A DNA stretch of 64,000 bases, from the NCBI RefSeq assembly GCF_007896845.1, contig NZ_VOHS01000005.1:1-64000 (forward strand), in the 5' to 3' direction. Below, in pieces: positions 11,970 to 53,020 of the stretch. The translations under genes and the position numbers were made by a program. The notes beneath the pieces are model-generated. The model was not told where the DNA came from, ran no database searches, and worked only from the letters and a program-made list of their open reading frames with translations. Each line of letters opens with the position of its first letter. Positions within the stretch are counted from its first letter, which is position 1. This stretch comes from Chitinophaga pinensis. Lineage in GTDB: Bacteria > Bacteroidota > Bacteroidia > Chitinophagales > Chitinophagaceae.

Positions 11970-11980
11970 GGCTTAATAAT

Positions 11981-31179: not shown

Positions 31180-31222
31180 CTATACTTATCGGGCACTGGT
31201 TATCTGAAACACCAATACCCGC

Positions 31223-33431: not shown

Positions 33432-34814
33432 TTATGGTCGCTTTAAAAGTCTCCACTCGGCCATCTGGAATAAGGTGGCATTCTTCACCGCTGTAATATT
33501 CAGGCGATAGAACTTAAAAGCTACCTGATTGGAAAAAGTATATTTTACCGTCAGGAAACGGGAACCAAAAGACTGATCTGTACGGGTATCCAACACTGTC
33601 CAGTCAGAACCATTGTCTGACCCTTCCAGCGTCCAGTTCTTAGGATCACGTTCTGGTGCATCATTAGCAGAAGTCATGGTATAAGCACCTGTAGTTATCG
33701 GTGTAGCGAATTCCAGCTGTGCCCATAAAGTAGAGAAATCAAACAACAGGAACTTGGAGTTCACATTGTTATCAATCAATTTACCAGAGGTTTCGTTTGC
33801 ATTGCTGGTATTCTCATACTGTGTCTTATAACCAATATTGGTGTTGGTAATATCCGTTTCTATCAGTTTGGAAGGATCCAGTTTCATTACCACTTTGCTA
33901 CGTGTCTCATCCAGCAGGTGACGGGTAGGGTTACTCAGACTTAAGGCCAGTACAGGTTTATTCAACTCATACTTTTTCAGTGATTCTGTTTTTACTACCA
34001 GATCGAATCTTGCTGTATTGCTATTGGCAGGAAAGTTCAGAGTAGAAGGAATGGTATAATCATCTCCTTCTTTCAGCAATGTAGATCCTGCCAGTGTACC
34101 ATCGTCAATCAAAGCCTGCGCAGTGTCAGCGCTGGTACTGATATTCACCGCAAAAGATCCTCCGGCTACACCACCAAGCGTTACACTTACCGGCAATACT
34201 ACAAAGCTGGTACCCAACGTGTGATCCGTACCGGAAGGCTGTTGCAATACACTACCGCCACCTGTAAAGAAGAGATAATGTATATCCTCCTGTCTGATCA
34301 CTTCTGTTGTATTGATCAATATGATTGCCATCTTTCCGCTGGCGTCCAATGTATTGTGTTTTCCCACATCTGCGAGGCTGACAGCCAGCGCCAGTGTCTT
34401 ACCGTAATACTTTTCTATCGCCTGCATGCTAACCTGCAAAGGAATAGACAGTGTATCGATACCAAACCTGACTTCAGCGGTTTTAGCCAGCTGATAATAA
34501 CTCTCTTCCAGTAATACAGCGTCTCCCAGTTGTCCGGCGTCAATCATATGCCGGATCGTATCATTATTCACATGTACATCTACTGTGAATATCTTAGGCG
34601 CGGTGGCAGACAGCACGATACCGACAGGTATAGAGACGTTATCAACAGTCCGGGTGTAATTATTACCCGACGGCACCGTGATGCGTCCGTTGGTACTACG
34701 GATGGAGACATTTACCGGCGACAGTTGTTCGTCGTTAAACTTTTCATTCTTCTTGCAGGAGCATAATCCTGACAGACATAGCAGCAACAGCACAGGGAAT
34801 ATATTGCGACTCAT
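33432..34814 (-). CDS. Surface lipoprotein with DUF1735 repeats and discoidin (F5/8 C) domain
   Basis: About 460 residues from MSRNIFPVLLLL at 34814. The lipobox is SGLCSCKKNEK. Two DUF1735-type beta-sandwich repeats follow (one with TVDVHVNNDTIRHMIDAGQL and LEESYYQL, the other with NISTSADTAQALIDDGTLAG and LKEGDDYTIPS). The C-terminal about 140 residues are a discoidin/F5-8 type C module: SGKLIDNNVNSKFLLF, LWAQLEFATPITTGAY, TLEGSDNGSDWTVLDTRTD and FKFYRLNITAVKN. Such modules bind glycans at the surface. It is the last gene of the operon, and binding rather than catalysis is expected. Confidence 0.8.
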   Translation of the reverse strand: MSRNIFPVLLLLCLSGLCSCKKNEKFNDEQLSPVNVSIRSTNGRITVPSGNNYTRTVDNVSIPVGIVLSATAPKIFTVDVHVNNDTIRHMIDAGQLGDAVLLEESYYQLAKTAEVRFGIDTLSIPLQVSMQAIEKYYGKTLALAVSLADVGKHNTLDASGKMAIILINTTEVIRQEDIHYLFFTGGGSVLQQPSGTDHTLGTSFVVLPVSVTLGGVAGGSFAVNISTSADTAQALIDDGTLAGSTLLKEGDDYTIPSTLNFPANSNTARFDLVVKTESLKKYELNKPVLALSLSNPTRHLLDETRSKVVMKLDPSKLIETDITNTNIGYKTQYENTSNANETSGKLIDNNVNSKFLLFDFSTLWAQLEFATPITTGAYTMTSANDAPERDPKNWTLEGSDNGSDWTVLDTRTDQSFGSRFLTVKYTFSNQVAFKFYRLNITAVKNATLFQMAEWRLLKRP

Positions 34815-34845
34815 ATCAACGTATTTGCGGTTTTTAAATAAATGT

Positions 34846-36570
34846 TCAGAGGCTGGCATAAGAGGTGACCCATACCCTTCCATCCATCTGCCATTTTGTA
34901 TCTGCGGCTATCTGCAGCCAGTTCAGCACCTGACGCGCTACATCTACCGGTTGTGGCACCAGTTGTGCGAGATTGGTGGCGGTACTTGGGCACATCAGAT
35001 CATTAAAATCATCCCATTGATAAGCACCATGTATGACAAAGTCATGCTGGTATTCCGACTGATCTTTGAAGACACCGCCAAAGCCATCCCGGCAAGGCCA
35101 GTATCCGATCAGGTAATCCCGGTAAGGATGAGAAGATGGCAGCTCTTCCGCGCACACATAGGTCCTTATCACACTATCCGGTAAAGCGGCGCGCCAGAAA
35201 CGAATCTCAGTAACATTGGCATTCAGCCAGCGATTATCATCCACCACGTTAGCCGGTACCCAACCCAATGTGAGCGGCGAACCATTGTCGAAATTGCCAT
35301 AAGAGGTAATTTCCTGTTCTGTGTTGAAATTACCGTCAGTGAACAGGCGGATGAAACGTTTATTATCTCTGTTCAGGAATACTGCAGTCAGGTCATGCCA
35401 TTTACCATCACTGATATTAGCGCCGGTCACCATATTGAAACCGGCACCATTCTGTCCGTAGTGTACACCCCATGCATTTGTTTCCAGAGACATACTCCAG
35501 CCGGTGTTCTTCCACCAGTCATCAGACAGGTTGTTACCAATGATATTAGGATAAGTATAGGAATAGTCGCCATAGATCGTCTTGTTCTTTTTGATCTTCA
35601 GAGCAATGGTCATTTCATTGGTCTTACCGAGATTCAGATCTTCTTTCCCCTGATTGATATCTGCATATACGGCGGTAGCAGCAGTTTTACCATACAGTCT
35701 GACAGACTTACCGGTATAACGGTTACCTGTGTAAGGGCGGTCAATAAAATTGGGCACATAACGCGGAGAATAGAAGATTGTGAAAGTATTGATCTTAGGA
35801 TTGCTGAGAATCGTACCATCATCTTCTTCCGGTCTGAGTTCGTGCGGACCGCCATTACCGGAGGTAACGATCACCAGCCAGTTCTCATGTGCATAGTTCT
35901 TACGCTGCTTCAATGCGTTCATGATATTACCGATGTAATCATCTACTCTTTGGATAGCGGCTTTGTATTCCGGTACACTTACATCATAACCATATGCTTT
36001 ACCAGCAGAGGCAACCTGTCCGAACTGACCGAATATGAGACCGGCGGTATCGATCTTCAATTCATCTATTATTGCCAACTCTGTCGCGTCATCATCATTT
36101 GCAAAAGTGCGGTTCACATCTGCATCGGTGATCAGCATTTTACCCAATGAGTCGGAAGCGCTGTATGCTGCAATACGAAAATCGGGCATACGGGCTTTGA
36201 TGTATTTGAAGAACACCGGGTACTGTGACAGCCGGTTATCACTGAAATCACTTTTTACCACACCATGCTTTTCTTTGCGCACACCTGTCAACAGATCTGC
36301 CCATGCGGTAGCAGACAGATTCAGTGTATCACTGATGCTATTCCATGAATAGATTGCATTATCTCCCAGCATCTGTAAATGAGTCGCCTGTGCACTTCTT
36401 ACAGATTCACCCCGTGCTCCGTCTACGACCAGAAACAGTATTTTAGGCTGTCTGCCTGTCACACCGGTTGTATCTTCATATTCCCTGTTTTCCAGCATCC
36501 GGTCATAGCCTTTGTTACAGGCTACACAAAGTACACCGATGATGATGGTCAGCCATCTGAGCTTCTTCAT
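34846..36570 (-). CDS. Lipoprotein with degenerate phosphatase-fold domain and LamG domain
   Basis: 574 residues from MKKLRWLT at 36570, lipobox IGVLCVACNKG. Residues 40-265 follow the type I phosphodiesterase/alkaline-phosphatase fold: ILFLVVDGARGE with the metal-binding D50, ATAWADLLTGVRKEKHGV in the nucleophile region, and IMNALKQRKNYAHENWLVIVTS. However, the metal ligands are missing. The usual DHxGH is ASAGK (187-191), and the usual SDHG is SGNG (237-240). The second half contains a LamG/concanavalin-like domain (MTIALKIKKNKTIYGDYSY, WSMSLETNAWGVHYGQNGAG, KWHDLTAVFLNRDNKRFIRL). A DUF4983-like tail ends the protein. I therefore expect a binding protein, not an active hydrolase. It overlaps nothing and sits inside the SusC/SusD operon. 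Confidence 0.75.
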   Translation of the reverse strand: MKKLRWLTIIIGVLCVACNKGYDRMLENREYEDTTGVTGRQPKILFLVVDGARGESVRSAQATHLQMLGDNAIYSWNSISDTLNLSATAWADLLTGVRKEKHGVVKSDFSDNRLSQYPVFFKYIKARMPDFRIAAYSASDSLGKMLITDADVNRTFANDDDATELAIIDELKIDTAGLIFGQFGQVASAGKAYGYDVSVPEYKAAIQRVDDYIGNIMNALKQRKNYAHENWLVIVTSGNGGPHELRPEEDDGTILSNPKINTFTIFYSPRYVPNFIDRPYTGNRYTGKSVRLYGKTAATAVYADINQGKEDLNLGKTNEMTIALKIKKNKTIYGDYSYTYPNIIGNNLSDDWWKNTGWSMSLETNAWGVHYGQNGAGFNMVTGANISDGKWHDLTAVFLNRDNKRFIRLFTDGNFNTEQEITSYGNFDNGSPLTLGWVPANVVDDNRWLNANVTEIRFWRAALPDSVIRTYVCAEELPSSHPYRDYLIGYWPCRDGFGGVFKDQSEYQHDFVIHGAYQWDDFNDLMCPSTATNLAQLVPQPVDVARQVLNWLQIAADTKWQMDGRVWVTSYASL

Positions 36571-36587
36571 ATATGCGGTTAATTTTA

Positions 36588-38157
36588 TCATTTAAATAAC
36601 AGGCGGACTACATTACTGATCTCTTTTTCATTGAAACGGTTGAATCGTCCCATGAGCAATGCCTGTGTTTGTCCGGAAGAGTTGATTGTCTCGAATACTT
36701 TGGAAAGGTTGCCGGAGAAGTCACCGGTATTGTTGTAACCCTGAGCCAGTTTGCCCGTATTATCCAATACCATGAAGCCACTGCGATGCACACCGTCATA
36801 GCGGTTGAAATTACCGTTGACGATCACCATGCCATTACTCAGCTGCTGTGCGCACCAATAATTTTCATTACTGGCTTTACCCCGCACATTGAACTGCGGA
36901 TCAGGTGTACCGTCTGCTTTCAGCATAACCAATCCACTGGCAGGCGCATTATCAAACTTGATAAAACTGCCGGATAGGATGAACCGCTGCGTAGTTTCAT
37001 TGAAACGGATAGAGAGAATAGAGTTATCTGCCCCACCACCGCCAAAGCCGGGATCCAGACTTCCATCTACATTGATGCGGGCGATATATGGCGCCGGTTG
37101 CCCGTTATAGCGGGTAAAACGTCCTACAATAATGATCTTCCCGTCTGCCTGCTGATAAGCATCTGCAATAGGGCCGTTAGGGCCATCAAAACTTCTATGG
37201 CGCGTCAGGTCATAATTGAAGGATGAATCCAGAGAACCGTCCGGAAGGAAACGAACCAGCTGGCGTACCAGCACACTGTCTGTGATCAGGGAATCTCTTT
37301 CTTTCAGGTAATCAGATTTACCATATATAAACTGCAGGTAGTAATTGAAGCCACCTATTGCGGTAATGCGGTTATTATGGACAAACAGTTTAGAGATACG
37401 GCCGTCAGTACCACCGTTGAAAGCTGGCACGGTGTCTTTGCCTGTAAAAGTGGTCACGCTCACAGAATCGATTGAGCCATTGCTGTTTAGTACTGTGATA
37501 TTATGGATCTCCGCCTGATGAATATCATAAGAGGCAAAATTGCCGCCCACTACAAGTTTACCACTAGGCAAAGCTGCAATACTATTCAGGGAACCATCGG
37601 CGCCTCTTCCTGATTGCAGACTACGATCCATTTCTCCATCTCTGGAAGTGAGTACGATCCGGCTGATAGGTCTTACAATGCCTTTACGTTCATAATCCAG
37701 AAAATCTCCTATCAGTAAAAGCCGGCCGTCTGCATAACGATACACATCATTCACCCAGTTGTTGGCGCCTACCACTACTTTGTAGTTAGGGTCAATATCC
37801 AGATTACCTCTTACTCTGAAGAGCGGACCAAAAAATCTGGTCTCCGATGGTAGCGGAAGTTACGCCTGTACTGGCGGCAACGGGTACCTTTACCTGTATG
37901 CCGGCGGAATCTACTTTCACAATTTCACCCGGTTCTCCATTGAAATTGAAAAGCAGGGCATCCTTATGTTTTACGAGTCCTTTCCCTTTAAAGGTGATCA
38001 CCGTACCCGGTGCTGCTTCTGAAGGCGCTGGTATTTCCGTACTGAGTTGTACACCCAGTGGTTCCTTTCCACCAGCATAAGGATCTTCGTATTTTTCATC
38101 TTTCTTGCAGGCGCCAATGGCAAGCATCAGCAGCACTGCTGTTGTTATTCTTCTCAT
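36588..38157 (-). CDS. Lipoprotein with TIG domain and delta-60 propeller repeats, one frameshift
   Basis: The N-terminal part (37829-38157) has a lipobox LMLAIGACKKDEKYEDPYAGG and a TIG/IPT domain (PAPSEAAPGTVITFKGKGL, KVDSAGIQVKVPVAA), resembling DUF5008. It then loses frame in a T6 run (plus-strand A6 at 37830-37835). The other frame continues GPLFRVRGNLDIDPNYKVVV and runs to 36588 with five or more delta-60 style repeats such as RFLPDGSLDSSFN, INVDGSLDPGF and LKADGTPDPQFN. These form a propeller. Removing one T restores a protein of about 520 residues. Surface binding is the likely role. It follows the fasciclin lipoprotein by 18 bases. Confidence 0.75.
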
Positions 38158-38175
38158 GTGATACTGACTTTTTTA

Positions 38176-38877
38176 TTAACCTCCGTTTTCCATTGCAGCG
38201 ATCACATCGGAGACAAAGAGATATGAGCTAAAACCGAAATAAAGATGATTGTCATTGATCGTATGCACCACACCATTATAGGTGGTGATATTACAGGAAG
38301 CAATACGTTCAATGATCCAGTTTTCCTTTGGCTTTGCCGGATCCGGTATCCATGCAAGCGTCAACTGGCGGTAGCCAACATATTTCACCCCATTATCATC
38401 ATTATAGATAACACCGATGTTCATAGGTGTACCAAACCATGACAGGTATCCTTGTCCGGGATAGGTATTCAACAGGTTGTAATCTATCTGTGGATAATCT
38501 TTCAGCTCATTGGCACCGTGGAACATGTACATCTGCAGATACTTCTGCCAGATGCGCTGTGGTACATCAGCGAGCGTTTTTATTGTGTCATATCCCTGAT
38601 AATACAGGTTGTAATTCAGTTCACGTACCAACCGGAGTATGCTTCTATCGGTCGGGGCAAAAAAGGTCAGGGTATCACTTTTGAATACCTCTTCCATTCC
38701 TGCCAGTCTCACTACTGTGGCCAGTGAATCAAAATAGAGCGGAACCGCATCGAGGTAATCCATGGTTGTTCCTTTAAAAGCAGGATCATGCTTGCCTGAA
38801 TCCTGAAAGTATTCATCTTTTTTACAGGCAGTGAATACCATAAAAAAGGCTGTCATTAAACAGAGTATTGTCCGCAT
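38176..38877 (-). CDS. Fasciclin-domain lipoprotein
   Basis: A 233-residue lipoprotein (lipobox MVFTACKKDE). The single fasciclin (FAS1) domain is recognised by TMDYLDAVPLYFDSLATVVR, TLTFFAPTDRSILRLVRELN (the FAPTDxA-type box) and, near the end, NGVVHTINDNHLYF, the H2 box in which VVHxIDxVL is typical. FAS1 domains mediate adhesion or binding. The gene lies 11 bases behind a SusD gene and 18 before the TIG gene. A second fasciclin gene with extra CBM modules occurs at 44653-46254 behind the other SusC/SusD pair, so this accessory is a repeated element of the operon. Confidence 0.85.
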   Translation of the reverse strand: MRTILCLMTAFFMVFTACKKDEYFQDSGKHDPAFKGTTMDYLDAVPLYFDSLATVVRLAGMEEVFKSDTLTFFAPTDRSILRLVRELNYNLYYQGYDTIKTLADVPQRIWQKYLQMYMFHGANELKDYPQIDYNLLNTYPGQGYLSWFGTPMNIGVIYNDDNGVKYVGYRQLTLAWIPDPAKPKENWIIERIASCNITTYNGVVHTINDNHLYFGFSSYLFVSDVIAAMENGG

Positions 38878-38887
38878 AAAACAGTTT

Positions 38888-40420
38888 TTATCTTAACCAA
38901 TAGTTGTTCAGTTGCATATAAGGGTTATTATCCAGTGCGCTGGTATTGATAGGCCATGTCCAGCCACCATTGTCAAACTGCGCCTGTGTGAGCGGATAGT
39001 AACACCATTGTTGATTCATAACACGACCAGTACGTACCAGATCGAAATAGTAATGACCTTCCATCATCAGTTCTTTTGCTCTTTCTGTGAAGATGGCGTC
39101 CTTGAGTGCTTGTCCGCCGCCACCCTGATATACAGGTGTTTTGGCACGCTGCCTGATCATATTCATCATCCTGATGGCTTCGGCAGTCTGTGTCTCGCCC
39201 AGTTCTGCAAGTGCTTCAGCTCTGAGCAGAATGGCCCCTGCATACCGCAATACGATCAGGTTGTTATCCACATTCACGTCTGAATTACCCTGTTCATAAA
39301 GGCTGTTATACTTGAGGAACATGAAAGTGCCGTCATTGGCAAACATCTGTGAGTCAAACCACATCTCTATTCTTGCATCAGGTATACCTGAAGGATAGAG
39401 GCGTCGCAGGTACTCTGCGCGGAAGTAGGTAAAACTGTATTGGTGATTGTAGGCCGGGCGTTTATACGGGTAATGCACGACAAACTCAGACAGATCATTC
39501 CATTTTTCTGCCAGTCCTTCTCCGTAGTTGGAACTGATCACGATATCAAACAGGCTTTCTCTTGAGCGGCCTTTGAAGATGGTGAATGACTCTTCAATAG
39601 GCAGCAATGTATAAGCACCACTTTTGATCATCTGATCACCCAGATCGGCGGTAGCCTGATAATGTTGTTGTGCGTTGGCTTTATCGAATCCGGCGTTCCA
39701 CATGTGTAATTCCATCAGCAGACCAATAGCTGCACCTTTACTGGCTCTTGCTCCCTGATAGGCAGGTTCTGTAAATGACCATGGCATATCATCCAGCACG
39801 GCAGTCAGCTCAGAGATACAGTTATTAACAACGTTGACCATTTTCTCCCTTGGCAAGGGTGCTTCATGATAGGCGTCTGTATAATAAACCACATCGCCCC
39901 ACATTCTCACCATGATGAAATAGCTCAGACAACGCATGAATGTTGCTTCTGCTTTATAAGCCTTTTTACGGGCTTCTGTCAGATCAGGTATCTGACGCCT
40001 GTCTACTTCGTAAATAAGGATATTACAGGCCTGTATGACACGATAATAGGGCTTCCAGTCTGCCATATTATACAGATCGAAAATGTCCCAGAATTCCTTC
40101 CCTGCGGGTCTGTAGATAACGGAAATAAGGTCATTCTTGGCGATATACTCCACAAAGGTCCTGTCAGCTCCATCCCCTTTGGGCGACATCGCCAGCATAC
40201 CTCCCCGGGCTTCTCCTGCCATAGCGAACAGAGGACAGGAACCCGTTACATCTCTGAAAAGGCCATAGATGTCCCAGGCATTGTCTTCTACATCTTTCGC
40301 TGTTTTGAAGAAGGTATTTCCTGACAGCCGGTCCAGTGGCTCTACATTCAGGAATTTTTTACACCCGTACTGACTGATCAGCAGTAAACAGGTCGTGATA
40401 TAAATAAACCTCCGGATCAT
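38888..40420 (-). CDS. SusD/RagB-family lipoprotein (second pair)
   Basis: A 510-residue SusD with lipobox ISQYGCKKFLNVEPLDRLSG. Typical blocks are AWDIYGLFRDVTG, AEATFMRCLSYFIMVRMWGD, VVYYTDAYHEAPLPRE and SKGAAIGLLMELHMWNAGFD. The C-terminal half has RYAGAILLRAEALAELGETQ, RAKELMMEGHYYFDLVRTGR and QWCYYPLTQAQ. The frame is complete. It follows its SusC by 18 bases. The glycan (or peptide/other polymer) is unknown because the operon has no enzyme gene. Confidence 0.93.
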   Translation of the reverse strand: MIRRFIYITTCLLLISQYGCKKFLNVEPLDRLSGNTFFKTAKDVEDNAWDIYGLFRDVTGSCPLFAMAGEARGGMLAMSPKGDGADRTFVEYIAKNDLISVIYRPAGKEFWDIFDLYNMADWKPYYRVIQACNILIYEVDRRQIPDLTEARKKAYKAEATFMRCLSYFIMVRMWGDVVYYTDAYHEAPLPREKMVNVVNNCISELTAVLDDMPWSFTEPAYQGARASKGAAIGLLMELHMWNAGFDKANAQQHYQATADLGDQMIKSGAYTLLPIEESFTIFKGRSRESLFDIVISSNYGEGLAEKWNDLSEFVVHYPYKRPAYNHQYSFTYFRAEYLRRLYPSGIPDARIEMWFDSQMFANDGTFMFLKYNSLYEQGNSDVNVDNNLIVLRYAGAILLRAEALAELGETQTAEAIRMMNMIRQRAKTPVYQGGGGQALKDAIFTERAKELMMEGHYYFDLVRTGRVMNQQWCYYPLTQAQFDNGGWTWPINTSALDNNPYMQLNNYWLR

Positions 40421-40438
40421 AGCAATACATTTAAAACT

Positions 40439-43400
40439 TTAGAATTCTACATTCAATCCCACGTTGTAACTGCGGGCAATCGGATAACCTCCTGACTGAT
40501 CGCGTCCCATTGCGGATACGTTCTCCGGATTAGGGCCGCTGTATGGCGAGAAGGTGATCAGGTTATTGCCTGACATATACATGCGCACAGAATTGATACC
40601 ATAGCGGTTGGTAAATTTCCTGTTCACGAGGTAAGCAATCGTCATGGTATTGACCTTGAAATACGAGCCGTCTTCCTGTATGAGTGTCTGGTCATAGCGG
40701 TAAGGCCTGATATCATTGTAACGTTTGTAGTCAAAAGGATTCGGATAATGTGCGGTAGAACCGGGGCCTTTCCAATAATCCACATCACTGAAATCAACCA
40801 TTGCTTTAGGATTGTAAGGGTCTCCCAGAAACTGCATTCTTTCAGCAAATGCATTGTTCAGAATGTCGCGGATAAGGGTAAAAGAGGTACTGATGTTCAG
40901 GGAGAAATTCTTCCAGTTCACATAGGACTGTATACCACCGGTGATCAGGGGTTGTGAATTACCAGCAGCTACATAATCGTTTGCATCGAGGATATAGTTA
41001 CCATCCACATCCTTCCAGATAGGATCACCCGCTTTGAAATAGGTACCATTGGAAGTACGGTAACGCTGACCCGTAGCAGGATCAACAGGAACATCTGCGT
41101 CTGAGGCATACACACCTTCCGTTTTCAGCAGATAGTTGGTCAGACTGTTTCTGCCCACCCGGAAGAGTGTATGCTGACTGGTGGAGTTGTCATACTGTAC
41201 CAGCTGTCTTGCCCCATTCGGGAGACTGGTCAGTACGTCTTTGTTCAACGCCGCATTCAGGGAGAGCGTCCACTGAACTTCACTGGTACGGGGCAGCGGA
41301 CGGAAAGTAAGGGTCAGTTCATATCCGTAGTTGATCAGTGAAGTTTCATTGGTGGTGATCTCGTTGAAACCTGTGATATTGGACAGCGATTTTGTACGGA
41401 GGAGGTTCTTCACGGTCTTATAATAAGCGTCGAAGATCACCTCTATCCTGCTGTCAAAGAAACCGGCCTCAAAACCGCCGTTATACTGTGTAGTCGCTGT
41501 AGGTTGCAGGTATGTATTAGGCAACTGATTGAAGTTAATACCAAGGCGGGGATTGGCATTGTACGTACCTCTCGGATCGTAGGTACCATAGATAGAAAAT
41601 ATGTCGCCGGACGGAACGATGTTCTGTCCCCAGCTACCGCGCAACGAACCATAGGTCAGCCAGCTTTTATCGCTCAAAGCGGCCTCTTTGTTAAAGTTCC
41701 ATCTGATACCAATGGCGGGATTCTTAGAGTATGGATCTTCAAAACCGGAGCTGGATGTACCATCCATTCTGTAACTGAAGTCCACTACATACTTCTGTTT
41801 GTAGTTGTAGGAAAATGTTCCTGCAAAGGAGGCCACATGCTGTTTGCTGTAGTTATCCAGGAGGCCCCCTCCACGGGAAGCATATCCATCATAACCGAGT
41901 GGTCCTTCGTATTGGTTATTCGGCGTTTTCTCCTGCCGGATCACCTGCGCCTGGAAGCCACGGTTATAGAATTCGTTAAATGCGGAGATAAAGAAGTTAT
42001 GGTTTGTATTTACAACACGGTTATAAGAAATTGTGTTACGGTTGTACAAGGTAAACTTGCGGTCGTTATACGCATAGATCTGGGAGAAGTCATTATTGGC
42101 TTCCGCCGGTGTGAAGCGGTCTTCCGTATTGGAAGCGTATTCATAACTCACACTGGATCCGAGATTCAGGCCCGGCACCAGCTGATAGCTGACATCCAGA
42201 CTACTACGCACGTTACCTGTTTTATTATCATTACGCGTATTCAAAGCAGCTAAAACGCCGGCGGTACTCTGGTAAAATGATGGACCGGGCAACAATGAGG
42301 AAGCCGATGCATTAGAAGAGACGCCACTTTGTGTCAGGCCATTCCCATTCCCTTTGTTTCTTCTACCTACCTGTGTGGATAAAGTAGTGAATACACGCAG
42401 TTTGGTATTAGGCTGATAGAGCATATTGGTATTGATGGAATACCTGTCAAAGCCTGTATTGCGGATCACACCATTCTCATGATAGTATCCCAGATCCACT
42501 TTATAGTTGAATTTAGGATCACCACCGCTGATGTTCACGTTATGCGTCTGGTTGGCGGTAGTAGCGTAAAATACATCCTGCCAGTTGGTAGAATTATTAT
42601 AGTAAGGATTCAGACTGTCTGCCAGAAAAGGTTTGGTAGAGATCTGGTAGATGTCTTCCATATTGCTGCCACCATTGATCATACCGAGGCGGATCCTTCT
42701 TTCTTCTTTACCACCGATGGTAGGACGTAATTTCGGTGGGTTATTCACAAAGAAGTTACCGGTATATCTTACCAGTGGGATCGGAGAACTACCACGACGT
42801 GTGGTGATCAGGATCACACCATAAGCACCCCGGGAGCCATACAATGCGGTCGCCTGAGAATCTTTCAGGATCTCCATGCTTTCGATGTCTTCCGGAGGGA
42901 TGAGGGACAGCGGACTTACACCGGGACCTGCAGACTGGTATCCATATTCGAAGTTAGCATCCGCTTCTACGGGTACCCCATCGATCACATATAACGGCGA
43001 GGTTGGTGACAGAAATGCGTCATTACCATTACCAGATACACTGATATTGGATAAACCCCTGATCTGTATCAGACCGCGACCACCGGGAGTACCGGTATTA
43101 TTCTGGATATTCAGCCCTGCCACACGACCCTGTAGTAATTGCTCTACGTTGGATACGGGAACGTCCTGTAATTCTTTACCACTTACGATCACCGCAGAAC
43201 CGGTGGTTACCTCTCTTGTCTTTTTCTGATAACCGATAACGATCGCCTCATTCAGCTTGTTTTCTGTTACCACCAGACGGATCACCAGATCACGTTTATC
43301 TTTCATTTTGATCTTATAATCAGAGAAGCCGATATAGCGGAATACCAGTTGGGCATCCGCCGGAACAGCTACAGAGAATGAACCATTTGCACTGGTTACA

Positions 43401-43573: not shown

Positions 43574-43598
43574 AGCGATAGATTTTTGTGTTGATAAC

Positions 43599-44639: not shown

Positions 44640-44652
44640 GGGTGTTGATATT

Positions 44653-46254
44653 TTAGTTTAAAGGCCGGAAAGTGACAGACTTCACATCAAAGCCGTCGTG
44701 GTCTACAAAGAAGCGCATCACATGTACTCCCTTTGTGAGGAAGACGCTGGTAGCGATATTCTGCCGTTTGTGGTATCCACCCGTATTAGGTACTTTTAGT
44801 TGTCCGGTCACATCTTTGCCATCAAATTCGAGGTGGAATATGCCGTTGGTGCCTTCAGAACCGACGAGTATAAATGTGTTGTAGGTACCCGTTTCTTTTA
44901 CATTGACAGTATAGTTCAACCATTCGCCGGTAGAGTTCCATCCCACCTGATAACCTCCGCCTTCATTCTTGGCGAAATCGATATCCACACCTTCAGATTG
45001 TCTGTACTTATTACCTTCATTCTTTGTGTTGGTATCGTGGTAGCCAACGCCTTCTCCACCCGGGTCATAATCTTCCAGAGCAATAACTCCCGGTATAGGC
45101 ATGGGTGCGTTCTTTAATACAAATTTGAGGAAGCGCAGGTCGAAGTTGGCAAAGTCAAAATAGACCTTCATCAGATGCCGGCCTGCTGTCAGCTGAACAG
45201 TAGTGGTAATATCCCGGAAGTTATCATAGCCACCTGAACCGGGCATCACGACAGAACTACCTACGACAGGACGCCCATCCATTTCCAGATGCACCCGACC
45301 ATCATCACCGCCGCTACCATAACGTAAAGTCATATCATATGCGCCGGTTTCTGTTACTTCTACAGTGTAATCCATCCACTCTCCGGTTTCGGTCCATCCT
45401 ACTTTCAGTCCGCCCTCGCCGGCAGTTGTGATATCTACCTGATCGGCAGGGCGATACTGGCCACCCTGATTATTCAGGGAGAAATCCAGATAGGCAACTT
45501 TATTACCACCGCGGTTGTATTGTTCCAATCCTACTACTCCCGGTATATAGAATGGATAATCATTCCATGGAGAAGAAACTGTTGGGTTCATTCTGGGGAT
45601 GAATTCATCAAATCCGAACATGTGGTCCTTTTCCAGCACGTTGACATAACCATTTTTAGTAACGATATCAAGCGCCACTGTAGTTGCATTGCTCCAGCGA
45701 TTGGTATAGATCACACCTTTTGTATCGCTGTAGGTGATGATACCAGGTCCGCCGCTGACGTGCCCTTCTGCATCTGTGCGTTTAAACTTACCGTGCATGG
45801 GATAGTTGTATCGGATAGTTGTTAATCCGAGACCATCCTGTAAAGTCATTACGTGCGAGGAGAATGTATCTCTTACAAAATACCGGCATACCAGTGTGTC
45901 CAGCTGTTCATAGGGTATTGTGTTGATAAACATATGTGCTCTTCCCTGTATGGTACGCAGGGTATTCATATTCTCGATAGCCTGTCTGAAACTGGCATCG
46001 GTAGGTGCAAATACTGTATATAAACCGTTCTTCAGTGTATCTGTCAGGTGTACCCTTTCGACTGCGAGCAGGAATGAATCGTACTGATGTTGACTTTTCA
46101 GGAAATCGTAAGTGGTACCATCAAACTCCTGCAGCTGATTCTCATAACCATAGTACCCACTGTCCTTTTTGCATCCGCCATAGAGCAGCACGATACAGAT
46201 ACACAGAGCCAGCAGATTTTGGATGTTCAGCATGTGTTTTATTTTTTTAATCAT
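44653..46254 (-). CDS. Lipoprotein with fasciclin domain and two CBM6-like modules
   Basis: About 533 residues from the ATG at 46254 that overlaps the SusD stop (ATGA). The lipobox is IVLLYGGCKKDSGYY. A FAS1 domain occupies about 35-200 (TTYDFLKSQHQYDSFLLAVE, LYTVFAPTDASFRQAIENM, NGYVNVLEKDHMF). Two consecutive CBM6/CBM35-like modules follow, each opening with a VGLEQY or ALEDYDPGGEGVGYHD strand and carrying VGWTETGEWMDYTVEV or VGWNSTGEWLNYTVNV (the glycan-binding face) and a closing HLMKVYFDFANFDL or HVMRFFVDHDGFDV strand. The combination suggests a surface glycan-binding protein that extends from the outer membrane. Confidence 0.85.
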   Translation of the reverse strand: MIKKIKHMLNIQNLLALCICIVLLYGGCKKDSGYYGYENQLQEFDGTTYDFLKSQHQYDSFLLAVERVHLTDTLKNGLYTVFAPTDASFRQAIENMNTLRTIQGRAHMFINTIPYEQLDTLVCRYFVRDTFSSHVMTLQDGLGLTTIRYNYPMHGKFKRTDAEGHVSGGPGIITYSDTKGVIYTNRWSNATTVALDIVTKNGYVNVLEKDHMFGFDEFIPRMNPTVSSPWNDYPFYIPGVVGLEQYNRGGNKVAYLDFSLNNQGGQYRPADQVDITTAGEGGLKVGWTETGEWMDYTVEVTETGAYDMTLRYGSGGDDGRVHLEMDGRPVVGSSVVMPGSGGYDNFRDITTTVQLTAGRHLMKVYFDFANFDLRFLKFVLKNAPMPIPGVIALEDYDPGGEGVGYHDTNTKNEGNKYRQSEGVDIDFAKNEGGGYQVGWNSTGEWLNYTVNVKETGTYNTFILVGSEGTNGIFHLEFDGKDVTGQLKVPNTGGYHKRQNIATSVFLTKGVHVMRFFVDHDGFDVKSVTFRPLN

Positions 46255-47765
46255 TGCCAATAAGGATTCTGGGTGATCAATGGGTTCTGTTTTATAACAT
46301 CGTCTGCCACCGGCCAATAGATGCCACCTTTAGCGATCAGTTCCATGAAAGCAGGATCATTCTGTTTGATCTTGTTATAGCGGATCAGGTCAAACCAGCG
46401 CCAGCCCTCTCCCATCAGTTCTTTCCGACGTTCCCGGAAAATGGCGTCAATCAGATCACCTTCTCTTGCAGCATCATATCTTTTGATTTTACGCAGGTCC
46501 CTGATGGTATTCAGGAGGTCAATCGCTCTTTGTTGTTCGCCAATAACGGCCAGTGATTCTGCCTGCAGGAGGGCTATATTTTCAAGACGGGTGATGATGA
46601 TCGTACTGGAATAGATCCTGAAAGAAGGATCCGAAGTATTACCATCCTGAATCACTTTTATTTTATTGAAAATGGGTATCTGGCTGTTGAAGTTGGCAAA
46701 GTAGCGTTGGGAGGTGGGTACACCGGTAAGGGTATCCAGACTGAAACGTTCATCCGATGGCCGATCAAAGACAGAAAGGATGGTGTCTTTGGGTACATAG
46801 ATATCCGGCAGTGCTTTATTCACCACAGGGGCTGCAAGCGTCAGTTCTTCGAGATGTCCGGAGAAGGTAGCGTCTACATGTCCCCAGTCAAAGTTGAAAG
46901 CCAGTATGTGATTGTCTTTTTTCCATTTGAAAAACCCGTTACTGTTAACCAGTTCATCTGTATTGATATAATAGCTGCCACCTTTTGAATAATTATCCAG
47001 TACGAACTGCGCGTATACGGATGCATCCACATACTTGCCCTGCCACGCTGCCACATGCGCCAGAATAGCGTAAGCAGTATGCTTACGGGCCAATACACCT
47101 GACCAGCGGGTATCCGTTTCGTTGTAATAACTACCGGATTGCTGAGGATCATTGGCGCTGTATTTATAAGGCAGATCAGCAGCTGACTGTACCAGTTCTT
47201 TCTCTACAAATGCCAATACATTTTCTTTACTTTCTCTTGCCTTATTGGCAAATTCACCATCATGAGAAGCGGTGATCAGAGGTACATCTCCCCATACAGA
47301 CACGAGGAAGAAATAAACATAGGCACGTATACAGCGCATCTGTGCGATATCTACCCGCATATTCTCATCCGAGTATTTGGGGTCGCGGGCTTTGACTTCA
47401 CCTACATGTTCGAGAAACATGTTTGCCGCATTGATCACCGCATAGAAGCGACGCCAGTTAGACAATTGTTCCAGCAAAGGATAGGCGGCCCGAAGATCAT
47501 TACGAATGAGGGCTTTCATATCCTGTCGTTGTATAGCGAAGAAATCTCCTTTACGGAATTCACCATACATCCACCACGCATTATTATCTGCCATAGCGGC
47601 ACGTAAGAGTCCGTATACGCCAATAAGCGCTGTACGGGTATCCTCATGCGAGTTCCAGAAGTTTTCTTCTGATACTGCGTGAGAAGAGTGAATATCGAGC
47701 AACTTGTTACATCCTGTGAGCACAGTCGTGCAACAACAAATTGTTATAAGCAATAGTCTTTTCAT
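46251..47765 (-). CDS. SusD/RagB-family lipoprotein (first pair)
   Basis: A 504-residue SusD-type lipoprotein (lipobox CTTVLTGCNKLLDIHSSHAV). Typical elements are AQMRCIRAYVYFFLVSVWGD, VPLITASHDGEF, HTAYAILAHVAAWQGKYVDA and the C-terminal block LENIALLQAESLAVIGEQQR, IFRERRKELMGEGWRWFDLI and QNPLITQNPYWQ. It shares one base with the end of its SusC and overlaps the start of the fasciclin/CBM6 gene by four, showing tight coupling. Confidence 0.93.
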   Translation of the reverse strand: MKRLLLITICCCTTVLTGCNKLLDIHSSHAVSEENFWNSHEDTRTALIGVYGLLRAAMADNNAWWMYGEFRKGDFFAIQRQDMKALIRNDLRAAYPLLEQLSNWRRFYAVINAANMFLEHVGEVKARDPKYSDENMRVDIAQMRCIRAYVYFFLVSVWGDVPLITASHDGEFANKARESKENVLAFVEKELVQSAADLPYKYSANDPQQSGSYYNETDTRWSGVLARKHTAYAILAHVAAWQGKYVDASVYAQFVLDNYSKGGSYYINTDELVNSNGFFKWKKDNHILAFNFDWGHVDATFSGHLEELTLAAPVVNKALPDIYVPKDTILSVFDRPSDERFSLDTLTGVPTSQRYFANFNSQIPIFNKIKVIQDGNTSDPSFRIYSSTIIITRLENIALLQAESLAVIGEQQRAIDLLNTIRDLRKIKRYDAAREGDLIDAIFRERRKELMGEGWRWFDLIRYNKIKQNDPAFMELIAKGGIYWPVADDVIKQNPLITQNPYWQ

Positions 47766-50665
47766 CAGAGATCCATTTTAAGTCCTATGGTATATGTCCT
47801 GGAAAGCGGCAGTGAATAGCCGGTATCAAAGCCGTTGAAGTCCACCAGTTCAGGATCTCCACCAGTATAAGGAGTGATGGTGAACAGGTTGGTAGCGGTA
47901 GCGTAGATAGCCAGTCCGTTGATTTTGCCTTTTTTATTCCACCATTTTGCGGTGGTCAGGTCATATTGCAGCGAGAGGTTGCGCAGTTTCAGGAATGAGC
48001 CATTTTCAAGGAAAAGATCCTGATCTATGCGATAGGCATCTACCGTGCTCCATGGATTATACAGGGGGTATTTGTCGTAGTTGCCCACTTTACTCCAGAA
48101 GGTAATTTCTTTTACAGCACTCATATCGATCTTTCCTTCTCTGTTAATAAAGTCGAAACGGTCGGCGACTTCGGCATTCATTACTTTACGGCCCAGAGTA
48201 TAGTAGAAGGACAAGCCAAGTGTAAACCCGCGCCAGTAGAAGTCACTGTTAAAGCCGCCTGAAATCACCGGTAGCACATGTCCTTTTAGCACTTTGTCTT
48301 TGTCATCAATGATGTAATCTCCGTTCTTGTCTTTCCAGCGAGGATCACCCGCCTGTAGGGTAATACCTTTATAATTCAGTTTCTTTCCTTCTGCACTGAC
48401 AGGAATTTCACTATCGCGGTTATAGATACCATCGTTTTCCAGTACCCAGTACTGATCGATCGCATGCCCCACACGCAGTAGTTTACTGCCGTTGGCTACA
48501 ACCAGTTCTTCCCTGCCATCAGGTAAAGCCAGCAAGGTATTTTTATTATAGTTGAGGGTAATACCGGGTGTCCATTGCAAAGCGCTTGTTGCAGGCAGTA
48601 CACTGGCTTTTACCCCGAGGTCTATACCACGGTTGCGGACGTCCATACCGTTTTTGTAGCGGAAGTTGTATCCGTATTCGGCGGCGAATGGTACACCAAG
48701 CAACATGTTATGATCTTCCTTGTTGTAGAGGTCAAGTGAAACCTGTAATCTGTTTTTGAGGAATGCGCCCGTCAGGTTTACATTCAACTGATCTGCGTAA
48801 GGCCAGGTAATACCATAACCGATATATCCGGAGGAATATGCTCTGCTGATTCCGGGGAAACCGTTATAGGAGAAACGAACCGGATTGTTGCTGAAGGACA
48901 TATCTGACGTGTACTGTGAGCCTTCCCCGAAGCGATCATCAGGCATCAGGCGCCCGATTCTTCCCCAGCTGGCTTGCATTTTCAGGGCATCGATGCTGTT
49001 CTGTTCTTTCAGCCAGATATTCCTGATATTGACACCAGCAGTGAATGTAGGTGTGTATAACCACCAGTTGTCCGGCTGTGCACTGGAAGAACCATCTGCG
49101 CGGACCAATACGGAGACATCCAGTTGATCGTTGTAGGAGTAAGCGGCACGACCGTAGAATGACAACAAACGCGCGCGTTGTTTATCCAGAAAAGAGAAGA
49201 TCAGGGCGTGGTTGAAGGATTTTGGAGACAGATATTCTGACTTGAGGATATCGGAATGCAGCAGATTGATACGGATCAGGTCATTCGGACCTTTGTATGC
49301 GTATGCATAGTTGTAGCGATGATAATCTGCCTGAAAGCCTTGACCAGCTTCTACGCTGAGGCGATGTTTCTCATTGAAGGTATGATTGTACTGGATATTG
49401 TTATTGAAGAACACCCGTTGATTATATCCGAAGTAGTTAGACAGATAATTCACTTTCTCCAGCAAGGTGCTTGGATAGAAGAGATCACGCAGTCCTTCGT
49501 TATAATCAAAACCGAACATGGAGTTCACCTGCCAGCTATCGCCCAGTTTAACATTTACTTTGAAATACCCATTTACTTCATTGGTTTTATTGTCATCGAA
49601 TGATTTCTGAAACTCATTCAGGTACTGGCTGTAGTAGTTTTTATTGGGAGGCAAAGGACTGCTGAGATCAGGTATGTATTGCATTTCTGCAAAGCGGTCA
49701 CGCAACCATGAGCTACGGGTTCTTTCCAACCGGGAGGCACTGATCATAGATGATATGGTCAATCCTTTCAGTGGGACCATGTTTATTTCAAACATGGCAT
49801 TGTAGCGATCCATCTTGCTGTCATCGGCTGTATTGGCGGAACGTTGGTTACCTGCTGCGAACATGAAATTAGCGCGGTCTGTTCCACTGGAAAGACTGGC
49901 GTTTACACCATATACCGGTCTGTTTTTAAAATAGAGGTCTGTCCAGTTGGACGGGCCATAGTAGGCATTATTGGTGGAATCGCGCAGATAGAGTGGATAT
50001 GTCTGCAGTTGTTCTGTAGTCGCATATTTATCATAGAAACGCTGCCGGAAATCGTTTTCAAATTTAGCGTTGGTGGTGTAGACATGCGGCCGCTGCACCA
50101 TACCAAAATAGGTGTTGAAACTTATTCTCCGGCGACCTACTACCGGAGCTTTTGTAGTAAGCAGTATGACACCGCCATTCACTGCACGCGGTCCGTACAT
50201 GGCTGCGCGTCCAAAGTCTTTCACCACTTCGATCTTTTCGATGTTGTTCAGATCTATAGATGAAAGCAGGTTGGTATTAGGTCCGAGGTGATTATAACCA
50301 AACAGTTGGATATCAAAAGTAAAGGGATGGTCCATGATCAATGGAATACCATCGAGTATAACTGTAGGTTGCGACTCATAAATATCTTTACTACTGATGA
50401 AGGGGATGGCAGCACCCCTCAATGCTATACTGCTATAAGCGCCCTGTTCTCCACTTGGTTCCTGTATATACACACCCGCTGCATTGCCTTTCAGCAACTG
50501 ATGTAGTGAGGAATATGGATAAGTATTTTCACGCTCCACTGAAATAGAATCGGCCTTTGTTACACGGACCTGTGGTCTGTGTAATTTCGCTGTATCCTGC
50601 CCTGACAAAAGGTTTGGGCAATACAGTGCCAGGCACGAAATGAAGATCCGTACAAGTACACGCAT
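47765..50665 (-). CDS. Short SusC-like TonB-dependent transporter, first gene of ten-gene operon
   Basis: 966 residues. A signal peptide (FISCLALYCPNLLSGQ) is followed almost directly by the plug: SSLHQLLKGNAAGVYIQEPS, PTVILDGIPLIMDHPF, IEKIEVVKDFGRAAMYGPRA and VNGGVILLTTK. The carboxypeptidase-regulatory-like domain that normally opens SusC proteins is missing, so the N-terminus is about 100 residues shorter than in the two other SusC genes of this window. The barrel is complete and ends RTYTIGLKMDL. It starts the operon, opposite to the helical-repeat gene at 51509. Confidence 0.9.
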   Translation of the reverse strand: MRVLVRIFISCLALYCPNLLSGQDTAKLHRPQVRVTKADSISVERENTYPYSSLHQLLKGNAAGVYIQEPSGEQGAYSSIALRGAAIPFISSKDIYESQPTVILDGIPLIMDHPFTFDIQLFGYNHLGPNTNLLSSIDLNNIEKIEVVKDFGRAAMYGPRAVNGGVILLTTKAPVVGRRRISFNTYFGMVQRPHVYTTNAKFENDFRQRFYDKYATTEQLQTYPLYLRDSTNNAYYGPSNWTDLYFKNRPVYGVNASLSSGTDRANFMFAAGNQRSANTADDSKMDRYNAMFEINMVPLKGLTISSMISASRLERTRSSWLRDRFAEMQYIPDLSSPLPPNKNYYSQYLNEFQKSFDDNKTNEVNGYFKVNVKLGDSWQVNSMFGFDYNEGLRDLFYPSTLLEKVNYLSNYFGYNQRVFFNNNIQYNHTFNEKHRLSVEAGQGFQADYHRYNYAYAYKGPNDLIRINLLHSDILKSEYLSPKSFNHALIFSFLDKQRARLLSFYGRAAYSYNDQLDVSVLVRADGSSSAQPDNWWLYTPTFTAGVNIRNIWLKEQNSIDALKMQASWGRIGRLMPDDRFGEGSQYTSDMSFSNNPVRFSYNGFPGISRAYSSGYIGYGITWPYADQLNVNLTGAFLKNRLQVSLDLYNKEDHNMLLGVPFAAEYGYNFRYKNGMDVRNRGIDLGVKASVLPATSALQWTPGITLNYNKNTLLALPDGREELVVANGSKLLRVGHAIDQYWVLENDGIYNRDSEIPVSAEGKKLNYKGITLQAGDPRWKDKNGDYIIDDKDKVLKGHVLPVISGGFNSDFYWRGFTLGLSFYYTLGRKVMNAEVADRFDFINREGKIDMSAVKEITFWSKVGNYDKYPLYNPWSTVDAYRIDQDLFLENGSFLKLRNLSLQYDLTTAKWWNKKGKINGLAIYATATNLFTITPYTGGDPELVDFNGFDTGYSLPLSRTYTIGLKMDL

Positions 50666-51508
50666 AAGGTAAATAATTTAAGACAGGCAGAGTTGATCAC
50701 ATCAGCGCATAGCGATGAGTAATCGATTACATCATGTATTATAAACTGGATTGCCGGAAGCGCACAACCAAAGTCATTGAGCCTTCCATCAGCATGTGCT
50801 AAAAGAGGTGTTTATACTAGAGATCAGGGTGAACAATACGCTCCGGACCCGTGGAAACTATAACGTGAAATAGATGATGATGCAGTTTTTCTGCATTGGG
50901 ATAGTATCTCCTAACTGTTGTATAAAACGTTTTAGCTAGTGCTTTTCATTAAAATAAATTGTGTTTAGGTTTTAGAAAAAAATGATTTTGGCTGTTGATG
51001 CTTTGCGAAGTTGCTGGTTACTTATACTCCTGTTAATTCAAATTTTTTAGATCCTGCTACAATTTTTCTACGGTGATTATTAGGTTGAATATAGTGCGAT
51101 TAACTAAACTTCTTCAATTTCATCAGGGCTCGCTAACGGGAATTTATAACATACCGGACAATGCTGTTTGCATTTGTGCCTTCATTACGATTCAAATATA
51201 ATGAGCCGTCTGATAACTTTTTAACCTTTTTTTATAAAGAATAGACATTCCCAATTTAAGTAATGCTGAATTCTGAAATAATTCACTTCACGCTTTTATA
51301 ATTAACAATCAACTAGTTAGTATTATATAGACCAGATAAATAAAATATAATTTACATACATTTCAGATAATCCAAAAGCATAAATATGCCATCTGACAGT
51401 GCACTACTTACTATTCGTTATTTAACTTATTTTGTTCCATATCAACCAAGATCTGTTATTGAAAAAATGGAAAGTTTGGGGGCCTTATAAATTAAAACCG
51501 TTAGGACT
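50666..51508. other. Divergent regulatory region of the ten-gene operon
   Basis: About 840 bases, AT-rich towards 51300, with no convincing gene on either strand. It must contain the operon promoter (minus) and that of the helical-repeat gene (plus). A CAAATATA at 51193-51200 reads TATATTTG on the minus strand and fits the -7 consensus, but without a TTTG at 19 bases, and it would leave a leader of more than 500 bases. I found no inverted repeat of note and no attenuator-like hairpin that I could defend. Confidence 0.35.
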
Positions 51509-53020
51509 ATGGCTAAAGCTGACATGCTTAGCAGACTTATAAATACACTTACGAAGGCTGAAAAAAGGTATTTCCGTATGTACACTGCGCTTCAGCAAGG
51601 CAACAAGGATTATGTGAATCTGTTTGACCTGATGGAACACCAATCATTTAAAAGTACAGCGGAAGTAAAACTCGCTTTTCAACAACAGTATGCAGGATGT
51701 AGTTATGATGTATGTAGTAAGTATCTCTATAAAGTCTTGCTGGATTGCCTGCTGCATCTGCGATTGCAGAAGCAGTCTACCGCTATGCTGACTGCGGGCA
51801 TACTAAAATGTGATATTCTGTTTGAACGTTCCCTGCATGAAGATGCATTGAAACAACTACAAAAAATACAGGCAACGTCTGCTACAAATGAAAAGCAGTT
51901 GTTATTGTTGTGGGCACAGCAACAGGAGATCCAACTTCTGCAGCAATTGAACTTTTCAGGTATCACCGCAGAGGAACTTTCTAATAAGCAATCGGCCATT
52001 CAGCATACGCTGGATGTGATGCAGCAGGTGCGTCAGCAGACATCCTTATACGAAACTTTGCGGCATACACTGCTATACAGAGGCAGTGCACGTACTATCC
52101 GTCAACAGGAATCAGTAGACGTATTACATGCGGAGATGCCACCTCCTGTATCTGATTCTGCTATCAGTCTGAAAACACATCTGCTCTTTCAGGCACACTA
52201 TCATCTCGCTACCAGCGATCATCCCGCGGCATTGCAGGTCTTTCATCAACTGAATCAATTACTGGAAACACATCCGGCACTCTTTGAGGATACACCCGCG
52301 GATCATTTACTCATCATTGAAGGGATATTGGACAGTTTGCGTGCAGGGAAACATTATGAAGAACTATTCTCTTTTATCGACAAGATCAAACGTCTGAAAA
52401 GTGATGGTGTCTATTTTGAGATCATGCAACAAAGATTGCTGTTTATTTATGAGTCAGGGGCCTATATTGATAGTGGAGATTTTGGTTTTGCATTAAAATT
52501 ATTACAACAGTATGCCCCTGGTATCAGAAAGAATATCGCATTAATGGATATCAGCAAGCAGGCTGAAATATATCTCTATATGGCACTTATCTATCTGGGC
52601 AATGAGGATATTAACAATGCACATAACAGTCTTGAACAGGTATTACAAAGTAACCTATACAGTACATTGCCTATATATCGTACCTGTCGTCTGGTACACC
52701 TGTTGATACAATATGAGCTGGGCAACTTCGAATACATACGTTATGAGACCAGAGCTTTTCGCCGGCATTTACAGCCAGATGCCAGACGCTCCTATATGCT
52801 TGAACGCACTGTTATCAAATTTCTGGGAAGTGGAGAAATACCAGCAGTTACTTCTTTCCGCACCGCTTTATGGAAGAAGATCAATGCCAGTTTTGATAAA
52901 ATAAGAGCAGACAAATATGAGCGGCAACAACTGAAATTGTTTGACTTCAGTGCGTGGATAGAAGCGAAGTTGAAGCGAAAATCGCTGGGAACAGTGTTAC
53001 AGGAAAAGATGAAGAATTAA
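51509..53020 (+). CDS. Helical-repeat (TPR-like) conserved hypothetical protein
   Basis: A 503-residue soluble protein rich in Leu, Gln and paired helices. The N-terminus MLSRLINTLTKAEKRYFRMY with LFDLMEHQSF is a pattern I have seen in uncharacterised Bacteroidota proteins near SusC/SusD loci. The rest consists of TPR/SEL-like helical hairpins: FQAHYHLATSDHPAALQVFH, LLIIEGILDSLRAGKHYEEL, AEIYLYMALIYLGNEDINNA and TCRLVHLLIQYELGNFEYIR. No DNA-binding or enzymatic domain is evident. It is divergent from the ten-gene operon and could act as a protein-protein scaffold or regulator. The function is unknown. Confidence 0.65.
   Translation: MAKADMLSRLINTLTKAEKRYFRMYTALQQGNKDYVNLFDLMEHQSFKSTAEVKLAFQQQYAGCSYDVCSKYLYKVLLDCLLHLRLQKQSTAMLTAGILKCDILFERSLHEDALKQLQKIQATSATNEKQLLLLWAQQQEIQLLQQLNFSGITAEELSNKQSAIQHTLDVMQQVRQQTSLYETLRHTLLYRGSARTIRQQESVDVLHAEMPPPVSDSAISLKTHLLFQAHYHLATSDHPAALQVFHQLNQLLETHPALFEDTPADHLLIIEGILDSLRAGKHYEELFSFIDKIKRLKSDGVYFEIMQQRLLFIYESGAYIDSGDFGFALKLLQQYAPGIRKNIALMDISKQAEIYLYMALIYLGNEDINNAHNSLEQVLQSNLYSTLPIYRTCRLVHLLIQYELGNFEYIRYETRAFRRHLQPDARRSYMLERTVIKFLGSGEIPAVTSFRTALWKKINASFDKIRADKYERQQLKLFDFSAWIEAKLKRKSLGTVLQEKMKN

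Follow-up and report, generated by a model that had tools for sequence, protein, structure and literature searches.

A conserved double SusC/SusD gene cluster of Chitinophaga pinensis without a recognised intact enzyme, possibly serving a surface glycan system as its capture-and-import half

What can a bacterium import through two SusC/SusD pairs whose gene cluster encodes no recognisable enzyme? The question is raised by ten genes of Chitinophaga pinensis (assembly GCF_007896845.1) found in a stretch of 64,000 nucleotides, positions 1 to 64,000 of contig NZ_VOHS01000005.1, which we refer to as the window. In the list of its open reading frames (ORFs), all ten genes lie on the minus strand from 50665 to 33432, with overlaps or short gaps throughout, an arrangement from which we infer that they are co-transcribed as one operon. 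Besides the two SusC/SusD pairs, they encode six predicted surface proteins, mostly with binding-type domains (Table 1). We favour, with a probability of roughly 0.55, the reading that this operon is the capture-and-import half of a surface system for glycans or glycoprotein glycans, the Chitinophaga version of the BT0262-90 core of Bacteroides thetaiotaomicron, and that its likeliest substrate is fragments of arabinogalactan or arabinogalactan-protein.

The original prediction, made from the letters of the window, had described a ten-gene double SusC/SusD cluster with no recognisable hydrolytic enzyme that binds and imports while relying on enzymes elsewhere. The cluster is real, with its ORFs and protein families in place, and searches of Pfam and NCBIfam recognised no intact catalytic domain in the ten proteins. 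They also contain no catalytic family of carbohydrate-active enzymes (CAZymes), so the operon falls outside the classical polysaccharide utilization locus (PUL), which is defined by a CAZyme in the same operon. Its last protein carries a BT_3987-like-N domain with no catalytic partner, and residues 340-478 of this protein match the discoidin part of the GH92 structure 7nsn (E 7.9e-31). The only enzyme fold of the operon, a phosphodiesterase fold, appears to be catalytically dead because its active-site residues have been lost. With no intact catalytic domain, a dead phosphodiesterase fold and a partnerless BT_3987-like-N domain, binding and import with enzymes elsewhere is still the best reading of the locus.

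The loss of catalytic residues was scored at six positions, which we take to be the nucleophile and five metal ligands of the nucleotide pyrophosphatase scheme. The window protein reads D-S-A-K-G-N at these positions, against D-S-D-H-D-H in intact homologues. The window protein and 77 copies from the 80 related loci described below retain at most three of the six residues, position four never being H and position five never D; 40 more copies from the genome regions, for the most part second copies or copies from overlapping species, likewise retain at most three. The copy of locus L005 keeps four, and on these residue counts the decay is graded. The full set of six is found in none of the 119 copies carried in operons, but in all 12 of the standalone homologues examined, one of which is in the host genome (L032). 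Judged by its residues, the operon protein is thus a pseudoenzyme.

Three of the intact standalone homologues (G481, G410 and G446, genomes of the same class that by gene content are likely Flavobacteriales, the first two of one genus) adjoin genes for PhnX-like, TIGR03364 and transporter proteins, which suggests descent from a phosphonate- or phosphodiester-handling enzyme. They also lend some weight to a different explanation, in which the phosphodiesterase-fold protein would free phosphate and the SusCDs would import it. According to the available text of PMC8115612, Flavobacterium has such phosphorus-scavenging (Pus-type) clusters, in which SusCD is accompanied by phosphatases and phosphonate enzymes, and there too SusCD stands beside a phosphatase-superfamily protein. 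The operon of the window, however, has no intact phosphatase or phosphodiesterase, and the active site is kept in none of the 119 operon-borne copies. CBM6, discoidin, M60 and a pair of SusCDs that are not equivalent are, moreover, features of glycan systems. No phosphonate genes appeared among the neighbours viewed in the 80 loci, where they were not searched for systematically. We regard phosphorus scavenging as improbable. As a separate observation, loci L167 (8964-14244), L168 and L170 combine intact phosphodiesterase-LamG-DUF4983 homologues with a SusC-like receptor, a DUF5690 transporter, a TIGR03364 oxidoreductase and a PhnX-like hydrolase, and represent a candidate phosphonate-scavenging cluster.

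The arrangement of the operon is strongly conserved. A protein search of 244 genomes of the family Chitinophagaceae found phosphodiesterase-fold relatives in 34, and 20-kb regions were taken from 20 of these. The core operon is present in the same order in 18 of the 20 Chitinophagaceae regions (one of them without a called first fasciclin gene), which upholds the conservation in this family that had been proposed as a check; the remaining two hold a looser version of the operon and a standalone homologue. When named genome contigs were scanned with an alignment of DUF5007, 237 relatives came up; the analysis used the 80 best, a choice that favours close relatives. They belong to Chitinophagaceae and Sphingobacteriaceae and include Chitinophaga, Pedobacter, Mucilaginibacter, Sphingobacterium, Niabella, Paraflavitalea, Lacibacter and Arachidicoccus. 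All nine core genes, SusC1 to the phosphodiesterase-fold gene, are found in one order on one strand in 75 of the 80 loci, which excludes chance, and the median gap at each core-gene junction is at most 23 bases. The exceptions are an uncalled first fasciclin gene (L109, L124), an uncalled phosphodiesterase-fold gene (L084, and L147, which has an M60 gene in that place) and a contig end (L148).

The DUF5007 protein of the window is 96% identical to that of Chitinophaga sp. YR627. The DUF5007 alignment matched 6 of 395 genomes of the class, including the host and all in two families. In the phylum, DUF5007 was matched in 4 of 296 genomes; DUF4983 matched 7 of 345 genomes. An NCBIfam SusD search of 247 genomes returned no match, and its control was equally silent. 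More distant relatives have either two SusCD pairs in tandem, after which come one fasciclin gene, a weakly matching DUF5007 gene and one of the phosphodiesterase fold (L057, L062), or fasciclin and DUF5007 beside just one SusCD pair (L060, L061), and the nine-gene order is therefore a trait of the closer family. Correlations between gene distances range from 0.57 to 0.87, figures that include genome-wide relatedness, and are compatible with joint inheritance.

Both SusC/SusD pairs are present in 80 of 80 loci. They would have no role in a cluster devoted to adhesion or matrix binding with import as a secondary function, an explanation suggested by the dominance of adhesion-type domains, since fasciclin, discoidin and LamG bind surfaces. 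It gains something from five relatives (L084-L088) with a PorV gene and a protein with a type IX secretion system (T9SS) tail upstream, yet the two complete pairs make it the least probable of the explanations considered here. In these five loci the PorV gene and the gene for a PA14/chitobiase-C/T9SS-tail protein lie directly upstream, and in most of them PorV is within about 40 bases of SusC1; one protein of each kind was scanned.

The position after the phosphodiesterase-fold gene distinguishes two types of operon. In the three relatives scanned, the gene there encodes an M60 peptidase of 650-700 residues that also has a discoidin domain, and the HExxH motif is present in 14 of 14 full-length M60 copies. 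By profile, M60 occupies this slot in 49 of the 80 loci and a BT_3987N/discoidin gene in 28 (L147 has both); neither is found in four, among them L116, where a GH65N/GH95-type gene is next, and L089, where an AraC-type regulator is. M60-type operons of Sphingobacteriaceae and Chitinophagaceae (for example L041, L058, L091) share the nine core genes and their order with the window operon, but differ in having the M60-discoidin gene next and, in the full regions fetched for this type, a second phosphodiesterase-fold copy after it.

Except for L148, cut by its contig end, the loci without M60 form one clade (32 of 83 tips, support 1.0). The first fasciclin is usually longer in this clade, with CBM6 added in 22 loci (Chitinophaga) and a weak or unnamed module elsewhere; it is long in all 27 loci with BT_3987N only and short in 46 of the 47 M60 loci in which the gene is called. 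Because the M60-less loci form a single supported clade, the exchange of M60 for BT_3987N and the longer fasciclin come close to one event and do not amount to independent replication. Sphingobacterium sp. CZ-2 has an M60-type operon (L058/L096) and a second operon, L059, which groups with the window's clade. The host assembly gave no match to the M60 family PF13402 at E<=0.001. Its other enzymes include eight GH43 matches over the cut-off and one DUF2264, and nothing ties these to the operon.

The closest structural relatives of the SusD proteins point to a known gut system. SusD1 matches PDB chain 3hdx_A over its full length at 462 bits (next chain 73 bits) and SusD2 matches 3iv0_A at 318 bits (next chain 80 bits); the model of SusD1 superposes on 3hdx with a Z score of 44.3 over 437 residues at a root-mean-square deviation (rmsd) of 2.1. 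PDB titles identify 3HDX as NP_809182.1 and 3IV0 as NP_809186.1, both from B. thetaiotaomicron, which lie four genes apart, as SusD1 and SusD2 do in the window. We take the two proteins to be BT_0269 and BT_0273. BT0277 is presumably an M60 protein, which would place M60 in BT0262-90. In agreement with the two identities, the available text of PMC10434189 lists BT0269 as a SusD, and that of PMC13088901 lists BT_0273 under PUL5. The former also lists SusDs, DUF5007, carbohydrate-binding and alkaline-phosphatase-family proteins among BT0269-75 and BT0277-79, the kinds of gene that accompany the SusDs here. The available parts of other papers assign BT0262-90 to arabinogalactan, with growth of a mutant in the hybrid two-component system (HTCS) regulator BT0267 at 78.9% of wild type (PMC3243724), describe BT0268 as an arabinogalactan-responsive SusC (PMC6874557; PMC5061871) and list the BT0267 regulator for arabinogalactans (PMC3878776).

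The evidence that the window operon shares its family with the B. thetaiotaomicron core is strong but not complete, and BT0262-90 is the likely gut relative, switched on by arabinogalactan. The window operon differs from that locus in having no adjacent CAZymes, HTCS or M60 gene, and in having a divergent RusR-family gene as well as the BT_3987N-discoidin and CBM6 modules. Where M60 between two phosphodiesterase-fold genes would mark the BT0262-90 module, the window operon has BT_3987N-discoidin and one phosphodiesterase-fold copy.

The claim that the operon stands outside known systems is not supported, as its SusDs match the B. thetaiotaomicron pair one to one, M60 occurs in 49 of the related loci, and an M60-type PUL without CAZymes is already in print for B. 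thetaiotaomicron (BT3013-BT3015; PMC11992087, available in part). That PUL also has a glycoprotein theme, but its description in the available text, the only basis on which we compare it, contains no fasciclin, DUF5007 or pseudo-phosphodiesterase. The original prediction had named a published operon with known substrate as grounds for abandoning it, and the available parts of the arabinogalactan papers on BT0262-90 go some way towards this. We found no account of the conserved operon as a unit in the literature covered, which mostly excludes subscription papers.

The two transport pairs are not equivalent. SusC1 lacks the N-terminal CarboxypepD-like domain (no CarbopepD match at E<=0.1) that SusC2 has. 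With the SusC2 domain of the window as query, 79 of 80 SusC2 proteins match at E<=0.01 as opposed to 0 of 80 SusC1 proteins, a test that could miss a very divergent domain. SusC1 proteins are also shorter, at 949-1016 versus 1037-1105 residues. We found no earlier description of this conserved asymmetry in the literature covered, again mostly without subscription papers. The fixed presence of both pairs and their asymmetry fit the idea that SusC1/SusD1 and SusC2/SusD2 form one mixed two-channel machine, a heterodimer on a shared lipoprotein scaffold, and not two homodimeric utilisomes, although we hold this to be a doubtful, speculative proposal. The scaffold would comprise the fasciclin, DUF5007 and propeller proteins and the dead phosphodiesterase, turned into a ligand-holding platform, and the machine would import the glycan and glycopeptide parts of one glycoprotein.

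Genes beside the operon offer further hints. The 195 upstream ORFs fell into 87 clusters, of which 38 representatives were scanned, ten of them in detail; the families named here are among the top 25 of 82. Some relatives have nearby GH2, GH29, GH35, GH36, GH88, GH95 and PL11 enzymes, and some have a rhamnosidase (GH78-type), an arabinofuranosidase domain, DUF2264 or an HTCS regulator, a set that fits weakly with decorated galactans or pectic side chains. By eye, LacI and extracytoplasmic function (ECF)/anti-sigma type regulators stand beside some copies. In the window, the divergent gene had been described as encoding helical repeats; its orientation stands, but it has no Pfam match and belongs instead to the 'BT2802 family ribose utilization protein' family (NF058569, 601.8 bits, cut-off 550). 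BT2802 is presumably RusR. That name is used for a regulator of the B. thetaiotaomicron ribose system in the available text of PMC12596196. The gene is found divergent beside the operon in 15 of the 80 loci, all close relatives, and is likely, from its family and position, to be a local regulator. A search ahead of SusC1 for the Bacteroidota promoter motif did not find a complete promoter, the one -7-like site being 527 bases upstream, and a sigma-70 scan scored below chance.

Several of these observations count against arabinogalactan and the BT0262-90 kinship. The link rests on two PDB chains and papers because the genome searches did not reach B. thetaiotaomicron sequence; its side of the comparison is thus those two chains, with presumed locus tags. 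The likely regulator in the window belongs to the RusR (ribose) family and is not an HTCS, and the growth defect of the B. thetaiotaomicron regulator mutant is mild. Enzymes adjoin the operon in a minority of the 38 representatives, a figure without a background rate, and other neighbours have housekeeping roles, among them HerA, ATP synthase, PCRF and porphobilinogen deaminase. The available text of PMC13088901 gives the substrate of PUL5 (BT_0273, BT_0270) as 'Unknown', and a paper on a marine arabinogalactan degrader makes no mention of fasciclin, DUF5007 or M60 (PMC11036162).

The same machine could serve a different substrate, as a general importer of O- or N-linked glycoprotein glycans or of pectic side chains with each copy tuned differently, and the Chitinophaga copy may then serve fungal, insect or bacterial glycoproteins. 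Known M60 members are O-glycopeptidases acting on mucins according to the available part of PMC11992087, the neighbouring enzymes of relatives are varied, and several genomes carry two or three copies (for example Pedobacter ghigonis: L091, L112, L119), those of CZ-2 being of M60 and non-M60-like types. The best-studied relative nevertheless responds to arabinogalactan, and we rank this explanation second, as a real possibility short of an even chance. Arabinogalactan as the substrate in Chitinophaga is proposed by analogy with that relative.

Under the favoured reading of capture and import, the ligand would be held at the cell surface by the fasciclin-CBM6, DUF5007, DUF5008/5122 propeller, dead phosphodiesterase-LamG and BT_3987N-discoidin lipoproteins, and would be imported by the two different SusC/SusD pairs with energy delivered through TonB. 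In most relatives, the operon-encoded M60 peptidase would cut the backbone of a glycosylated protein. In the window's clade the M60 gene is absent, a putative binding protein fills its slot and binding modules are fused to the first fasciclin, so that the cell would have to rely on enzymes encoded elsewhere or by other organisms, or on fragments already released.

Table 1. Positions in the window of the operon genes, the hairpin at the operon end and the divergent gene
Feature	Position	Strand	Evidence or remark
SusC1, TonB-dependent SusC/RagA porin	47765..50665	-	TIGR04056 430 bits, Plug
SusD1 lipoprotein	46251..47765	-	SusD_RagB; top PDB chain 3hdx_A
Fasciclin (FAS1) lipoprotein with two C-terminal CBM6 stretches	44653..46254	-	PF02469 E 1.9e-7; PF03422 E 1.6e-35
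DUF5007 surface lipoprotein, predicted all-beta with Ig-like parts	43599..44639	-	PF16398 E 6.6e-71
SusC2	about 40439..43573	-	TIGR04056 649 bits; CarbopepD_reg_2 E 2.2e-9; ORF opens 43711
SusD2 lipoprotein	38888..40420	-	SusD_RagB; top PDB chain 3iv0_A
Second fasciclin lipoprotein, without extra binding module	38176..38877	-	PF02469 E 8.8e-5
DUF5008 + DUF5122 (delta-60 propeller) lipoprotein	36588..38157	-	Frameshifted near 37837 in this assembly
Predicted phosphodiesterase-fold pseudoenzyme + LamG + DUF4983 lipoprotein	34846..36591	-	PF01663, PF13385, PF16356
BT_3987-like-N ('DUF1735') + F5/8 C (discoidin) lipoprotein	33432..34883	-	PF08522 E 1.9e-7; PF00754 E 3.2e-5
Terminator-like hairpin, operon end	33368..33389	-	9 pairs, 7 GC, T-rich tail
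BT2802 (RusR)-family gene, divergent, likely local regulator	51509..53020	+	NF058569

Family matches support the earlier assignments of the CBM6, DUF5007, DUF1735/discoidin, phosphatase-fold/LamG and two fasciclin proteins. Both SusCs exceed the curated TIGR04056 cut-off of 368 bits, as both SusDs do that of SusD_RagB, and a lipoprotein-like signal can be seen by eye at the start of several operon proteins. The first fasciclin ORF opens at 46317, its likely ATG being at 46254, where it overlaps the SusD1 stop; the last ORF runs from 34883, with a likely start at 34814. For the protein predicted to be of TIG/delta-60 type, DUF5122 was found, but its gene is broken in this assembly, where a T run falls one base short of what the reading frame of relatives requires. 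Relatives such as L069 have an open frame, and the intact L069 orthologue has DUF5008 and DUF5122; there DUF5008 (63.8 bits, cut-off 25.4) is a better description than TIG, which at 19.4 bits stays under its cut-off of 20.9. The AlphaFold model of the DUF5007 protein has a mean predicted local distance difference test (pLDDT) score of 87.2. A fold search gave no match over its full length; the resemblance of its N-terminal part to the SusE-like BT4661 (4ak1), with a Z score of 9.5 over 95 residues at an rmsd of 2.4, exceeds background only slightly.

Elsewhere in the window, a separate PUL-like cluster on the same strand (1059-15190) encodes SusC/SusD, an apiosidase family protein, a BT_1020-like propeller with a sialidase-like CBM, and GH43-like, DUF6298 and DUF3826 proteins. 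A terpene synthase family 2 gene lies at 20657-21691, and a DUF2961 gene and a macro-domain gene (29948-31741) follow downstream of the operon, past an opposite-strand gene. By eye, a transporter-like gene at 53132-54726 is apparently split in two overlapping ORFs (53869/53827), and HlyD- and TolC-like ORFs adjoin it.

SusCD operons that lack enzymes tend to go uninterpreted. In this case the comparison with relatives points to a class of substrate that can be tested. It also reveals a recurrent phosphatase-like gene as a predicted pseudoenzyme and, after it, a position taken by a peptidase in some loci and by a putative binding protein in others. For the presumed B. thetaiotaomicron counterpart two structures are available, and the reason for keeping two non-identical SusCD pairs becomes directly testable in a laboratory strain.

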